From the IMG/VR virus record IMGVR_UViG_3300027668_000097, positions 1-24,319 of that record: a stretch of 24,319 nucleotides of DNA, one strand, 5' to 3'. The DNA is from a virus. A program made the translations under genes and the position numbers. This document shows, piece by piece, positions 30 through 23,114 of this stretch; within the stretch, counting starts at the first letter, position 1, and each line of letters starts with the position of its first letter. Under the pieces are notes generated by a model. That model had not been told where the DNA came from and did no database searches. It saw only the letters and a program-made list of their open reading frames with translations.

Positions 30-53
30 GGGGCGGTTCGCCGCCCCTTTCTT
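30..53 (+). terminator. Rho-independent terminator with UUCG tetraloop
   Basis: A perfect 7-bp GC-only stem (GGGGCGG at 30-36, CCGCCCC at 41-47) closes a TTCG tetraloop and is followed by TTTCTT. This is a compact, very stable hairpin between the upstream gene and the tail genes. In T7-type genomes a terminator after the capsid gene reduces transcription into the tail genes; that role is inferred here from position. The T-tract is short, so termination is probably partial. Confidence 0.75.
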
Positions 54-18955: not shown

Positions 18956-19674
18956 TCAGATCCGTTTTGTGCGCCCAGGCCACGCAAGCTTTTAAGGTAA
19001 GCCTTTTCAATCTGATCTCCAAAAGCTTCTCCGACTGCTGTAATTGTGTCAGAATTGTGTTCTTTCAACTCTTTCAGCAATGTCATCCGCCTACGCGGCT
19101 CAACCGCTTCGCCATCTTTGTCGTGAGTAGTTGAGCAATAAATTCCAAACATCTTAATCAAACTTTTAGCAAACTCCTGGTGTTCTAGCTTCTTCAGCTC
19201 CTTGCCGGTGTGGCTTAGTAGTGAAACCGTTGGGGCATCTGGGACCGGAGCGGGTGCTGGCGCGGCTGCTTGCTGTGCCTGGGCTTTTGCCTTGCGTGGT
19301 ACAGCGTCAATCTCGTTGAGGCTGGCATATGTGCCGCCATGCAACCCTATCGACGCCAGAGCGCGGCCTATAGCGCTTGTTTCGCAATTCTCTAGCGCGG
19401 AAGTCTTATTTACGTTTGAGCTTCCACGGATCTCCTCCGCCATTCCTGACCCTACGATCATACCCGCTTCGTTTATCACTGTTGCTTTGATAACCACGCG
19501 CTTGCCATCATCTAACAGGATCTCTGTGTTGATCCCGTGATTTAGTGCAAATGCTTTTCGGAATGCCTCAACGCGCACGAATACTTCTGTATATTTCTTT
19601 CCGCCCCGCTGCGTGACACCGTGGCTACGGTTAAGATCGTTCACTTCGGCCATTGCTGTTTTTAAATCGGTCAT
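18952..19674 (-). CDS. Putative single-strand annealing / ssDNA-binding recombination protein
   Basis: 240 residues from the ATG at 19674, which overlaps the upstream gene as ATGA and has GAGG 6 bases before it; an ATG at 19719 lies inside the upstream gene. The folded part (about 1-125) ends with SALENCETSAIGRALASIGL (92-111) and then the segment GGTYASLNE. This E-T-S-A-I-G-R-A-L motif recurs in phage recombination proteins that sit next to Gp157-type genes. An Ala/Pro/Gln linker (about 129-148) leads to a charged C-terminal helical domain (about 155-235), which may contact partner proteins. The exact family (Rad52-like, ERF-like or other) cannot be fixed by eye. It would act in phage DNA repair, recombination or replication. 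Confidence 0.65.
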   Translation of the reverse strand: MTDLKTAMAEVNDLNRSHGVTQRGGKKYTEVFVRVEAFRKAFALNHGINTEILLDDGKRVVIKATVINEAGMIVGSGMAEEIRGSSNVNKTSALENCETSAIGRALASIGLHGGTYASLNEIDAVPRKAKAQAQQAAAPAPAPVPDAPTVSLLSHTGKELKKLEHQEFAKSLIKMFGIYCSTTHDKDGEAVEPRRRMTLLKELKEHNSDTITAVGEAFGDQIEKAYLKSLRGLGAQNGSE

Positions 19675-20156
19675 TTTATCCTCACTGTGATTGATGGTTG
19701 GCCCATTTGAAATTGGCATCCTGGAACGCTTTCGCCCTGATCCATTTGTTTTTTAATTGCTGCCAGGTCGGGCTTGATTGTAACTTTTGTTAGCTGCGAA
19801 GGAATTTCCGCCTCATCAAATATCTTAACGCCCCATCTGGCTTTGGTTCTGCTAATTGTGGCTATCGGGTGCTTGATCTTTGTTTCTCCCATAGCGTCTA
19901 AAAGATGTCCAATTGTTATTGAAATTGCATTTTGCCTGGCAGCCAATCTTTTTGATCTGGTAGAATATGTTGCTGCAAGATCTTTCATTGCGACTTCGTG
20001 CGCGGCTGCTTCAGTGCGCTCCTCGACAAGCTTGCCCATAATCTCCATAGCATCTGTTTCGCCATCTAATGTGTCGAGAAAAGTATCCTGGTCATCGCCG
20101 GTTATCATTCGGATCTGATCCGACATGGCTGAAATTTCCTCAAATTTAATGTACAT
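19671..20156 (-). CDS. Gp157-family protein (Sipho_Gp157)
   Basis: 161 residues. The layout fits the Siphovirus Gp157 family: a central long helix with Glu/Ala/Arg repeats (VEERTEAAAHEVAMKDLAAT and on to about residue 90), then MGETKIKHPIATISRTKARW, then EIPSQLTKVTIKPDLAAIKK and a C-terminal EGESVPG-type turn (here QGESVPGCQF). The family's biochemical role is unknown; it is common beside recombination genes and has been linked to phage resistance in streptococci. Start at 20156 is supported by AAGGAAGGGG 7 bases upstream; the second ATG (20126) has GAGG at a longer distance. It overlaps the winged-helix gene by 11 bases. Confidence 0.85.
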   Translation of the reverse strand: MYIKFEEISAMSDQIRMITGDDQDTFLDTLDGETDAMEIMGKLVEERTEAAAHEVAMKDLAATYSTRSKRLAARQNAISITIGHLLDAMGETKIKHPIATISRTKARWGVKIFDEAEIPSQLTKVTIKPDLAAIKKQMDQGESVPGCQFQMGQPSITVRIK

Positions 20157-20858: not shown

Positions 20859-21089
20859 CTAGCCGTAATGCTTTTCAAAAACTAAAAGCACGGTTCCGAT
20901 CGCCTTGGAAGAATAGCCCTTGATGTAAAGGATCTGCTCAACAAAGAAATATTCCAGAGACGCAATGTCATCGAACTCAAACCTCCAATACTTTTCGCCG
21001 TGATGGTTCTTATGGATTTCAAATTGATCTTCTAAAACCTTTTCTATGTTAGCCATACGATCGGTCATATTGGTGTTATTAACTGTCAT
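20859..21089 (-). CDS. Small protein of unknown function
   Basis: 76 residues, soluble. The first third is polar and helical (MTDRMANIEKVLEDQFEIHK), the middle is aromatic (HGEKYWRFEFDDIASLEYFF) and the end is mixed alpha-beta. AAAAGGAG lies about 7 bases before the ATG, an excellent ribosome site. It follows the first copy of the repeated intergenic hairpin. I recognise no family. Confidence 0.7.
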   Translation of the reverse strand: MTVNNTNMTDRMANIEKVLEDQFEIHKNHHGEKYWRFEFDDIASLEYFFVEQILYIKGYSSKAIGTVLLVFEKHYG

Positions 21090-21106
21090 TTTATTCTCCT
21101 TTTGAC

Positions 21107-21141
21107 TTAGTGATGCGCCCGAAGGCGCACTGCAAAATCAA
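21107..21141 (-). repeat. Repeated intergenic hairpin element, copy 1
   Basis: Read on the minus strand: TTGATTTTGCAG (containing the upstream gene's TGA stop), then stem GTGCGCC, loop TTCG, stem GGCGCAT, then CACTAA. The stem spans 21113-21130 (6 Watson-Crick pairs plus a G-U). The flanks are nearly identical to copy 2 at 21966-22003, but the stem bases differ in a compensatory way. No U-run follows, so it is not an ordinary terminator. It sits between a stop codon and the next Shine-Dalgarno site. Confidence 0.85.
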
Positions 21142-21497
21142 TTCCAATGCTGTTGCAAGTAAGCTGGGCCTGTCCACTGAACCCAATCAAAGTTGCCTTC
21201 GACAATGTTGCCCCTTGCTTTGTTCCGTGCTGGTGTCGCCCAACCAGCAGGGTAAAGAATGTCGCCTTTCTTAAACTTCCGATCATCGTCAACATTAACA
21301 ACAAAGCCCCAAACGCTACTCATAGGAGTGCCGCCGTTGCCCGTCATAATCTTGATGTATTTCTTGCCAACATTAAAACCCAAACAATTGTCAAAATCCT
21401 CAATCATCTTTTGTTTCACGTTTTCATCATTGCTAAACTTACAGCTTGCGTAATCAGCCTTGATAACGGCGATCAGTTTTTGTATCTGCTTTTCCAT
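21138..21497 (-). CDS. Small conserved phage protein of unknown function
   Basis: 119 residues. A helical start (1-45) leads to a beta-rich part: VGKKYIKIMTGNGGTPMSSV, WGFVVNVDDDRKFKKGDILY, then PAGWATPARNKARGN and a W-T-G-P-x-Y-L ending. I recall this order (K-Y-I-K-I, W-G-F-V, KGDIL, GWATPARNKARGN, WTGPxYL) from T7- and T4-type marine phages, where it is unassigned. AGGAG lies about 8 bases before the ATG. Its stop codon is part of repeat copy 1. Confidence 0.78.
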   Translation of the reverse strand: MEKQIQKLIAVIKADYASCKFSNDENVKQKMIEDFDNCLGFNVGKKYIKIMTGNGGTPMSSVWGFVVNVDDDRKFKKGDILYPAGWATPARNKARGNIVEGNFDWVQWTGPAYLQQHWN

Positions 21498-21512
21498 TTT
21501 CTTCTCTCCTGA

Positions 21513-21746
21513 TTAATATTGAGGTTGATAGTTAATTTTGGGAACGCTCATTTTTATTCCCTGCCATCCAGTTTGCGCGATCGCAACCGCAGTTGCCGCC
21601 TGGGCTGGAGTGGCTTTGATTTCCCATTCATCAACTGCAAACTCAACAGCCGCGTTGGCAGCAGATTTCCAATCAGCAGTCATCTCGTAAGAAGTCAAAG
21701 CGCTTTCTGCCATTTGCTGAATTTCCCATTCACTCATATAAGCCAT
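21513..21746 (-). CDS. Small acidic protein of unknown function
   Basis: 77 residues, Ala/Trp/Glu-rich and helical (EIQQMAESALTSYEMTADWK, then AANAAVEFAVDEWEI). A polar C-terminus ends in YQPQY. The ATG at 21746 directly follows the stop of the upstream gene (TAAATG), so coupling is likely; a second ATG at 21737 is possible. Composition fits the neighbours. No family recognised. Confidence 0.66.
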   Translation of the reverse strand: MAYMSEWEIQQMAESALTSYEMTADWKSAANAAVEFAVDEWEIKATPAQAATAVAIAQTGWQGIKMSVPKINYQPQY

Positions 21747-21947
21747 TTAACAGATCCTCATAACTTGACCGGCTTGCGCCGCATTGAACCAGGTTTCTTG
21801 CCCAGCCTTGTCGCCGGACTGGATCATACCCATCAAGCTTTTCTCGAAGATGATATCTTCAATATCAGTCTGCCTTTCGCCAACCTGGCTAGTGCCGCCA
21901 TTGTCGAACAAGTCCAACACCGCAGCTTCTTTTTGAATCTTAGCCAT
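21747..21947 (-). CDS. Small protein of unknown function
   Basis: 66 residues from the ATG at 21947, preceded by GAGG 9 bases upstream; a longer frame from 22016 would cross repeat copy 2 and the upstream gene's stop, so it is rejected. Mostly helical (MAKIQKEAAVLDLFDNGGTS, DIEDIIFEKSLMGMIQSGDK). Its stop abuts the next ATG. No family recognised. Confidence 0.66.
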   Translation of the reverse strand: MAKIQKEAAVLDLFDNGGTSQVGERQTDIEDIIFEKSLMGMIQSGDKAGQETWFNAAQAGQVMRIC

Positions 21948-21965
21948 CCTTATTTCCTCTCTTGG

Positions 21966-22003
21966 TTTAGTGATGCAGCTCGGAAGCTGCACTGCAAAAT
22001 CAA
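21966..22003 (-). repeat. Repeated intergenic hairpin element, copy 2
   Basis: On the minus strand: TTGATTTTGCAG (containing the upstream gene's TGA), stem GTGCAGCT, loop TCCG, stem AGCTGCAT, then CACTAAA. The stem spans 21973-21992 (7 Watson-Crick pairs plus a G-U). Compared with copy 1 the inner stem changed from GCC/GGC to AGCT/AGCT while both sides still pair. Copies 1 and 2 bracket the 66-, 77- and 119-residue genes. Confidence 0.85.
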
Positions 22004-22260
22004 GCCTGGCAAACATTTAACATACCTGGGTTGCTCCATTCAGCAAACAAACCGTTGGCATCCAATATCTCGTTGATCTTGTTGTTTACTCCGAAGTCAT
22101 CTAAGGCCCCGCCTGGAAACTCACAGTAATAGTCGGCCCAGCAAACTTTGCCGTTATCTTCGCCGTTGATTTTAAAGTCGCTGTGATCCCAATCGTTTAT
22201 GATTACTGGGCAACCGATTTTCTTCAAGGCGTTATAAGCTTTTCTCATGTTCTGTTTCAT
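22000..22260 (-). CDS. Small protein of unknown function, first gene of the minus-strand operon
   Basis: 86 residues, acidic, Trp- and Asn-rich. MRKAYNALKKIGCPVIINDW opens it, followed by DHSDFKINGEDNGKVCWADY and an ending INEILDANGLFAEWSNPGML, a mixed alpha-beta small domain. GAGAGG lies about 8 bases before the ATG. It is the first gene after the divergent control region and therefore the most highly transcribed early gene, if the promoter is correct. No family with known function recognised. The last codon and stop fall inside repeat copy 2. Confidence 0.72.
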   Translation of the reverse strand: MKQNMRKAYNALKKIGCPVIINDWDHSDFKINGEDNGKVCWADYYCEFPGGALDDFGVNNKINEILDANGLFAEWSNPGMLNVCQA

Positions 22261-22382
22261 TTTTGATTCCTCTCTTGATTAACTTCACCTATTAGACTAA
22301 TGTGATATCACAACAGGGTCAATACAATTATTAACAAAATGTGGATTTATTTTACAAGTTACTGAAAACAAAGGAAAAGAAA
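22261..22382. promoter_or_regulatory. Divergent control region
   Basis: 122 AT-rich bases between the minus-strand early operon and the plus-strand replication operon. Minus strand: TTGACC (22322-22317), 17 bases, TAGTCT (22299-22294). Plus strand: TTGATT (22275-22280), 17 bases, TAATGT (22298-22303). The -10 matches are weak in both directions. The palindrome at 22301-22312 lies inside the spacer of the minus promoter and next to the -10 of the plus promoter, so one bound protein could control both. The plus transcript has a leader of about 70 bases. Confidence 0.5.
22301..22312. promoter_or_regulatory. Perfect 12-bp palindrome, candidate operator
   Basis: TGTGATATCACA is self-complementary over 12 bases. 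It sits in the divergent intergenic region and overlaps the candidate promoter elements. The adjacent ribbon-helix-helix protein (22383-22628) or one of the minus-strand HTH proteins are candidate ligands. I found no second identical copy. Confidence 0.55.
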
Positions 22383-22628
22383 ATGAAATATCAATCGAAG
22401 GGATCAACTAAAAAAGCTCTGATCGTGCGGTTGCCGGTTGATTTAAAGACTCGACTTGATATCGAAAGCAACTTGCAGGGAATATCACAAAGCCGCCTGG
22501 CAACTGAGCTGATATCGAATGGACTAGATCAAACTGTGGTTCATCTAGCGACTGAAGCGCATGATGCCAGGGAAGCCGCCTGGTCAGAAGGTCAGGTAGA
22601 TCTTGAAAACTGGCTGAATCGGATATGA
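22383..22628 (+). CDS. Ribbon-helix-helix DNA-binding protein
   Basis: 81 residues from the ATG at 22383, which has AAAGGA about 7 bases upstream; an ATG at 22341 lacks one. The strand KKALIVRLPVDLKTRLD (about 9-25) and the two helices up to LATELISNGL (about 48) form an Arc/CopG-type ribbon-helix-helix. An acidic, Trp-containing tail follows (EAAWSEGQVDLENWLNRI). Such proteins bind short palindromes as dimers; autorepression at the 12-bp palindrome is a testable guess. It overlaps rusA by ATGA. Confidence 0.78.
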   Translation: MKYQSKGSTKKALIVRLPVDLKTRLDIESNLQGISQSRLATELISNGLDQTVVHLATEAHDAREAAWSEGQVDLENWLNRI

Positions 22629-23032
22629 CCAAAACTTATATTTGGTTACCAGGTCAACCGGTCGGGAAGGGCCGCCCTAGATTTACCAGGACGGGTAGGG
22701 TCTACACCCCAGATAAAACTCGAAAGTTTGAACATCGCCTGGCTGCAACTGCATCCAATTACATGATTTTGCACCAGCTAGAGCCTACAGACAAACCGTG
22801 CCGCGTTATCATCAGGGCGCAATTTGAGATTCCAAAGAGCTGGACCAAAGCAAAGAAGGCCCAGGCAATCAACAACGAGATCTACCCAGGGCGTCCCGAT
22901 ATCGACAACATTGCCAAAATCGTCTTGGATTCATTCAATAGCGTGGTTTTTGAGGATGATGACCAAGTTTATGATCTGCGAGTAGTTAAAACTTATGGAG
23001 ATCCGTGCCTAGTTACGGAAGTGATATGGTAA
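22625..23032 (+). CDS. rusA: RusA-type Holliday junction resolvase
   Basis: 135 residues. The N-terminus (WLPGQPVGKGRPRFTRTGRV) and the central block GRPDIDNIAKIVLDSFNS (89-106) followed by EDDDQV are diagnostic of RusA. The catalytic set is D92, D94, K98 and D113, corresponding to D70, D72, K76 and D91 of E. coli RusA. The enzyme is a dimer that nicks four-way junctions symmetrically, resolving recombination intermediates before packaging. Length fits (120-140). It starts by ATGA overlap with the ribbon-helix-helix gene and is followed by a leader region and the initiator gene. Confidence 0.93.
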   Translation: MTKTYIWLPGQPVGKGRPRFTRTGRVYTPDKTRKFEHRLAATASNYMILHQLEPTDKPCRVIIRAQFEIPKSWTKAKKAQAINNEIYPGRPDIDNIAKIVLDSFNSVVFEDDDQVYDLRVVKTYGDPCLVTEVIW

Positions 23033-23033
23033 T

Positions 23034-23071
23034 AAAAAAGACCCCTGCAAGCAGCAAATCTTGCAAGGGTC
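23034..23071 (-). terminator. Intrinsic terminator facing left (minus strand)
   Basis: GACCCCTGCAAG (23040-23051) and CTTGCAAGGGTC (23060-23071) form a 12-position stem with one C-A mismatch on the plus strand (G-T wobble on the minus strand) and an 8-base loop. On the minus strand it is followed by six U (23039-23034); on the plus strand no U-run follows. It therefore acts best on leftward transcripts, although no minus-strand gene is visible to its right in this window. Confidence 0.7.
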
Positions 23072-23114
23072 TATACTGTAGGATACACTGAAAGAACCAA
23101 AAACCAATGCAGCA

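Follow-up and report, generated by a model that had tools for sequence, protein, structure and literature searches.

The window, that is, the whole 24,319-nt stretch of viral DNA analyzed here, carries on its minus strand a leftward operon that opens with an 86-aa gene and in which two copies of a hairpin element, A and B, bracket a block of three genes. The first-pass annotation had placed genes for 66, 77 and 119 residues between two minus-strand copies with common flanks, and this was confirmed, as were its closer observations: the stems differ yet pair (GCC-TTCG-GGC in one copy, AGCT-TCCG-AGCT in the other), the upstream stop codon, here TGA, is found at the identical place in both copies, and a Shine-Dalgarno (SD) site then follows. 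The pattern TTTTGCAGTGC-N-GCATCACTA matches exactly twice in the window, at 21108-21137 and 21968-21999 (minus strand), where dinucleotide shuffles expect 0 matches. A covariance model of the element likewise finds two copies only in these 24.3 kb, at 21953-22006 (copy A, E 7e-17) and 21093-21144 (copy B, E 1e-16), the next match having an E of 0.36. The hairpin element is real. The features of the locus, all on the minus strand, are the following, in the direction of transcription.

22000-22260, minus: 86-aa gene (family F8), first in the leftward operon; the element follows it in 11 of 11 relatives
22000-22002, minus: stop codon TGA of the 86-aa gene, within the 5' arm of copy A
~21961-22004, minus: copy A of the hairpin element, 3' of the 86-aa gene; upper stem 21973-21992, UCCG loop 21981-21984
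21956-21961, minus: SD-like GAGAGG directly 3' of copy A, next ATG at 21947 (sequence inspection)
21747-21947, minus: 66-aa gene (family F1), in the bracketed block; its neighbors are variable, without any element
21513-21746, minus: 77-aa gene (family F13), in the bracketed block
21138-21497, minus: 119-aa gene (family F5), in the bracketed block; the element follows it in 18 of 18 relatives
21138-21140, minus: stop codon TGA of the 119-aa gene, within the 5' arm of copy B
~21102-21141, minus: copy B of the hairpin element, 3' of the 119-aa gene; upper stem 21113-21130, UUCG loop 21120-21123
21096-21101, minus: SD site AAGGAG directly 3' of copy B, next ATG at 21089 (sequence inspection)
20859-21089, minus: 76-aa gene (family F6), first after copy B; a more conserved gene run begins here

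The first G (21961) of the GAGAGG of copy A is also a partner in the outermost pair of the hairpin.

Several other signals were seen in the window. Upstream of the 86-aa gene lies a promoter-like TTGACC-17-TAGTCT (22294-22322, minus strand), whose spacer holds a perfect palindrome, TGTGATATCACA (22301-22312). Both are conserved in relatives L003, L008, L058, L127 and L191, whatever gene follows, and the palindrome looks like a putative repressor operator in an early promoter. A RusA resolvase is encoded at 22625-23032 (plus strand), and just after this rightward gene comes a strong terminator-like hairpin for leftward transcription (23039-23072; 13 pairs, then TTTTTATT). A Mu Gam-like end-protection protein is encoded at 19671-20156 (minus strand). 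Finally, a GGGGCGG-TTCG-CCGCCCC hairpin followed by TTT (30-47, plus strand), just 5' of a 205-aa gene, may be a late-operon terminator or a site of processing there.

Fold and distribution of the element

RNA folding predicts a minus-strand hairpin of ~45 nt composed of a lower stem, an internal loop, an upper stem and a tetraloop. The lower stem, of 8-10 bp, pairs UUGAUUU.. with ..AAgUCAA, with one or two mismatches in some copies, and leads into a 2x2 internal loop (CA/CA) and an upper stem of 7-8 bp, the first pair of which is an invariant G-U. The hairpin described in the first-pass annotation is present, but only its top had been seen and it was too short; the flanks also pair together. 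In all copies the cap is a UNCG tetraloop, either UUCG, UCCG or UACG and no others, closed by a C-G pair in the copies with 3-bp or AGCC stems, including copy B, and by U-G or U-A in the other copies, including copy A. Hardly any variation is seen in the internal loop and the adjoining AGUGC...GCAUCA, and the stem above them varies with compensation. The SD begins at the end of the 3' arm or at most 1-2 nt beyond, and its core is unpaired in the predicted folds. The minimum-energy fold was identical in all six copies tested, with z between -2.4 and -4.7 in five, and window copy A alone folded no better than its own shuffles (z -0.8). A shorter hairpin with a CAU bulge (AGUG/CACU) was rejected: 100% of its cells pair, but it leaves unexplained the minimum-energy folds, the pairing of the flanks and, at columns 12-37, a linked change of G/A and C/T. 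An integron attC-like site was rejected as well, since its ATTTAAC is present in one variant by chance and no partner box was seen on inspection.

Further copies were sought in IMG/VR with pattern scans, with scans anchored on the proteins of neighboring genes and with the covariance model, which was built from 20 distinct copies. The matches listed by two loose scans of the collection were mostly due to chance and were filtered by structure. A first set comprised at least 44 copies in at least 34 records, the window counted, with two copies in ten records and 29 distinct sequences; one extra copy came from L278, a divergent group member whose tail protein is 77.5% identical to that of the window. 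In total, there are at least 45 copies in at least 35 virus records, all in one marine phage group, and since many of these 35 records are near-identical contigs, the independent observations are far fewer than 45. Weak third matches that lie 5' of the 86-aa gene (16.8 bits, E 0.41) and resemble its leader and SD were left uncounted.

Outside this group the element was not found in the collections searched. No Rfam match reached the gathering score in the window or in seven relatives. Exact patterns found no real copy in 84,980 bacterial and archaeal genomes, the first yielding 0 matches and the second one Bacteroidota match that does not pair and lacks the context of the element. A blastn search of 50,697 phage records with the element returned no copy, only 18-base matches (E 3) in tape-measure genes of Streptomyces phages. 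Among known phage records, the best match for the 732-aa tail protein of the window is Methylophilales phage MEP301 (47.7% identity), in whose complete genome the covariance model finds no element. Inheritance from the MEP301 type of phage was rejected, as there is no copy there and, under the criteria used, no UNCG hairpin either. The YqaJ and ERF recombinases of MEP301 have no homologue in the window or in 16 relatives.

Selection on RNA structure

Across the 20 distinct copies, standard pairs fill 92.5% of pair cells (87.0% in shuffles). Both sides are changed in 23 cells, where shuffles lead one to expect 8.0, and the covariation score reaches 0.225, against 0.121 in shuffles. Not one shuffle out of 500 equaled the paired fraction, the double changes or the covariation score. 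When pairing partners were slid by 1-3 columns as a control, 28-48% of cells paired, with 0-3 double changes. A gap-free alignment of 13 copies, including that of L278, agrees with the 20-copy result. Change on both sides is found in four pairs only, however, 8-9 pairs being invariant, and of the five covariation measures applied to the 20-copy set, two (the number of doubly changed pairs and that of further pair types) are no higher than in shuffles. The covariation evidence thus rests on few columns, to which the loop, strand and conservation data are added.

As for the strand, G-U pairs (52, eight of which are an alignment artefact of 3-bp stems) far outnumber A-C mismatches (8), so the sense strand pairs better (92.5%) than the antisense strand (80.3%), and these wobbles show the sense strand to be the one predicted to fold. 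A DNA cruciform, which the first-pass annotation had allowed for, or any other strand-neutral inverted repeat, is consequently not favored, the UNCG loop being moreover a feature of RNA. Conservation is also high. Between the window and 12 relatives the element is 87-100% identical, versus 69-76% for the 3'-terminal 240 nt of the 119-aa gene, and it is more conserved than the upstream coding sequence in 12 of 12 comparisons.

We looked for a lack of further copies and for a loss of pairing in related phages, either of which had been held to speak against selection for structure. Copies were found and their pairing is kept, and selection for RNA structure is supported by these further copies together with the compensatory pairs, the UNCG loops and the sense-strand G-U pairs. 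Judged from the sequences, it is well supported that the hairpin would fold in the mRNA and act, and be selected, at the RNA level.

Function of the element and gene exchange at the joint

The element has a fixed place between genes. In 44 of 44 copies the upstream stop codon lies within the 5' arm, either as a TGA at a fixed place (41 copies) or as a TAA five bases later (3 copies), and the same later TAA, read by eye, is used in L278, where the upstream gene encodes 168 aa with no relative detected in the window or in L127. The next start codon comes after the SD. Protein clustering on both sides of the joint, with gene-order maps based on rough gene calls that missed a few genes, shows that the upstream gene nearly always belongs to one of four unrelated families, which the element follows in 18 of 18 (F5), 11 of 11 (F8), 3 of 3 (F20) and 6 of 7 (F10) cases, and that ten families are found downstream. 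These combine freely: five different families come after the 119-aa family, one downstream family is found after three upstream families and after a short unclassified gene end (L016), and another is likewise found after three. Comparison of gene content between the copies in relatives, as suggested earlier, revealed differing blocks, with genes swapped on both sides. The twin copies lie 331-1027 nt apart, and the second is nearly always at the border between accessory genes and a more conserved gene run, the exceptions being L004 and L009, where an accessory gene follows the second copy, and L259, where a 44-aa gene is inserted.

Relatives of the bracketing genes were also seen elsewhere. An 80-nt stretch of the 86-aa gene matches Roseobacter phages CRP-13 (its gp07, 81% identity) and CRP-207 (79%), and since no hairpin follows the CRP-13 gene, the 86-aa gene can evidently be passed on without the element as well. 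For the 119-aa gene, a relative with 39% identity is encoded by Pelagibacter phage Mosig EXVC030M, and other marine viral contigs (L160-L167) hold more distant relatives, the element being absent in those checked.

The reading that we favor, and in which we have about even confidence, is that the element is an intercistronic hairpin for mRNA processing or stability and for translation spacing, akin to the CUUCGG hairpins of T4, which also acts as a homologous seam. For its specific role we infer nuclease processing, an exonuclease barrier or ribosome hand-over. The leftward early mRNA would carry the element as a structured joint, with the upstream stop in its 5' arm and the SD after its 3' arm, where a UNCG-capped hairpin separates two cistrons. 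This hairpin could be an exonuclease barrier and/or an RNase III-type processing site, which would give the upstream message a protected 3' end and the downstream message a structured 5' leader beside a free SD. On reaching the stop codon and terminating there, a ribosome would open the lower stem, and we propose that folding is thereby tied to upstream translation. Since the ~50-bp joint is conserved, it would also offer a stretch of homology where genes swap while stop, hairpin and SD stay in place.

That the hairpin instead serves translation coupling or reinitiation, governing the hand-over of ribosomes from the end of the upstream gene to the next SD, is possible, if rather doubtful. It could do so through partial occlusion in the absence of upstream translation, relieved when a ribosome terminates, or by holding stop and SD near each other. 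The stop always within the 5' arm and the SD directly 3' of the 3' arm fit such coupling, as does a joint in L091 (minus strand, ~700-760) that follows a 92-aa-type gene and has lost hairpin and SD alike; as in coupled genes, this gene ends at a TAA ~9 nt before the next ATG. The hairpin is missing and thus dispensable at this one joint. However, the predicted folds leave the SD core unpaired, which makes strong occlusion unlikely, and the element occurs with unrelated genes on both sides.

The first-pass annotation had further offered the element as a recombination seam, and here the part that stands is that genes are swapped on both sides, with breakpoints in the element. In L014 the 77-aa gene is 98% identical to that of the window, through the next SD and start, the place of the 119-aa gene is then taken by an 86-aa-type gene, and homology returns exactly at the element and continues into the 76-aa gene. 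On inspection, the L014 element joins the upper stem of the type that follows 86-aa genes to the tail of the type that precedes 76-aa genes, a hybrid make-up which suggests that the crossover took place inside it. The 44-aa gene inserted in L259 has a second copy of the 3' half of the element next to it, and so lies between two copies of that half. Together with the free combination of upstream and downstream families and the differing content of the blocks bracketed by twin copies, these cases would suit a conserved DNA joint retained primarily for early-gene exchange, with the hairpin secondary. We nevertheless consider this improbable. Neighboring element-free junctions shuffle as much: seven different genes come next after members of the 66-aa family F1, at joints that lack the element, so that regional shuffling does not need the element, which is therefore not a dedicated recombination site. 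Moreover, a DNA joint needs no compensatory changes, UNCG loops or strand bias, and any conserved sequence becomes a seam by itself. These sequence comparisons favor a view of the element as a conserved RNA part which doubles as a good seam.

A binding site for an RNA-binding protein of phage or host, a regulator or antiterminator that recognizes the CA/CA internal loop, is very unlikely: it would suit the near-invariance of this loop and of AGUGC...GCAUCA below a stem varying with compensation, but no candidate protein is known, a conserved internal loop may equally serve a nuclease, and the copies lie between genes inside an operon, unlike nut and put sites, which adjoin a promoter.

We tentatively suggest that RNA part and seam make up a gene joint of dual purpose, selected in the mRNA as an RNA element and serving also as a modular connector that carries stop, hairpin and SD. 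If so, a gene replaced between a start and a joint would be expressed at once, and pairs of joints would let whole early-gene blocks be exchanged or deleted. Turnover of small early genes is fast in phages, and most of these genes lack a known function; a recognizable joint that stays fixed amid changing genes is a sequence handle for accessory genes in marine phages, for which the covariance model is directly usable on metagenomes. The joint also offers a testable example, on a small scale, of the mutual influence of mRNA structure and gene exchange.

Comparison with known phage elements

The first-pass annotation had likened the element to the ESAS of cluster K mycobacteriophages, which are imperfect 17-bp inverted repeats with a 4-13-bp spacer, present in several copies directly upstream of the SD of small non-structural genes (PMC3203893). 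Their function is reported as unknown, there are 11-19 SAS copies, and ESAS go with particular downstream families (PMC3203893). Our element likewise has a long inverted repeat, with a 4-base loop, in several copies and directly upstream of the ribosome site of small non-structural genes, and the resemblance, judged on layout, is an analogy only. In contrast to ESAS, it is present in 1-2 copies, contains the upstream stop codon and follows particular upstream genes. Furthermore, the 13-bp GGGATAGGAGCCC of cluster K is absent at the ribosome sites, with one 3-mismatch match elsewhere in the window, fewer than expected by chance, which argues against an ESAS.

The PeSLs of T4-like phages are mobile promoter/stem-loop cassettes (Arbiol 2010, Comeau 2014, both as cited in PMC4503421). 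Like these, the element is a short intergenic stem-loop where small early genes shuffle between related phages, with an SD and a stop codon in place of promoter and terminator. A scan for sigma-70-like promoters, other promoter types being outside its scope, found none at either copy, nor is there a terminator-like site or a T run at either, and an identity as promoter or intrinsic terminator was rejected. This argues against a PeSL-type unit as the citing paper describes it, and on these comparisons the element is neither a cluster K SAS nor a T4 PeSL.

T7-like phages have RNase III sites between their early genes, which are imperfect ~20-bp hairpins with an internal loop. The element is similar in each of these respects, but its internal loop is symmetric and its cleavage only putative, and we know of no sequence relation between the two.

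The element is akin to the UUCG hairpins that are common between phage genes, one of which stabilizes the gene 32 mRNA of T4 (Tuerk et al. 1988, via PMC8948821). By that account, CUUCGG hairpins are UUCG-capped stems found mainly between genes in phage genomes, and our element, with its UNCG tetraloop on a stable stem between genes, belongs to this kind. It differs from them in its greater length, to which a lower stem and a 2x2 internal loop that is conserved belong, in a tetraloop that varies within UNCG, and in flanks, stop and SD that form one conserved unit. The hairpin is a previously uncatalogued family within a known kind of phage element, and its unusual trait is that stop codon, hairpin and SD are one conserved unit at the joints where early genes are exchanged.
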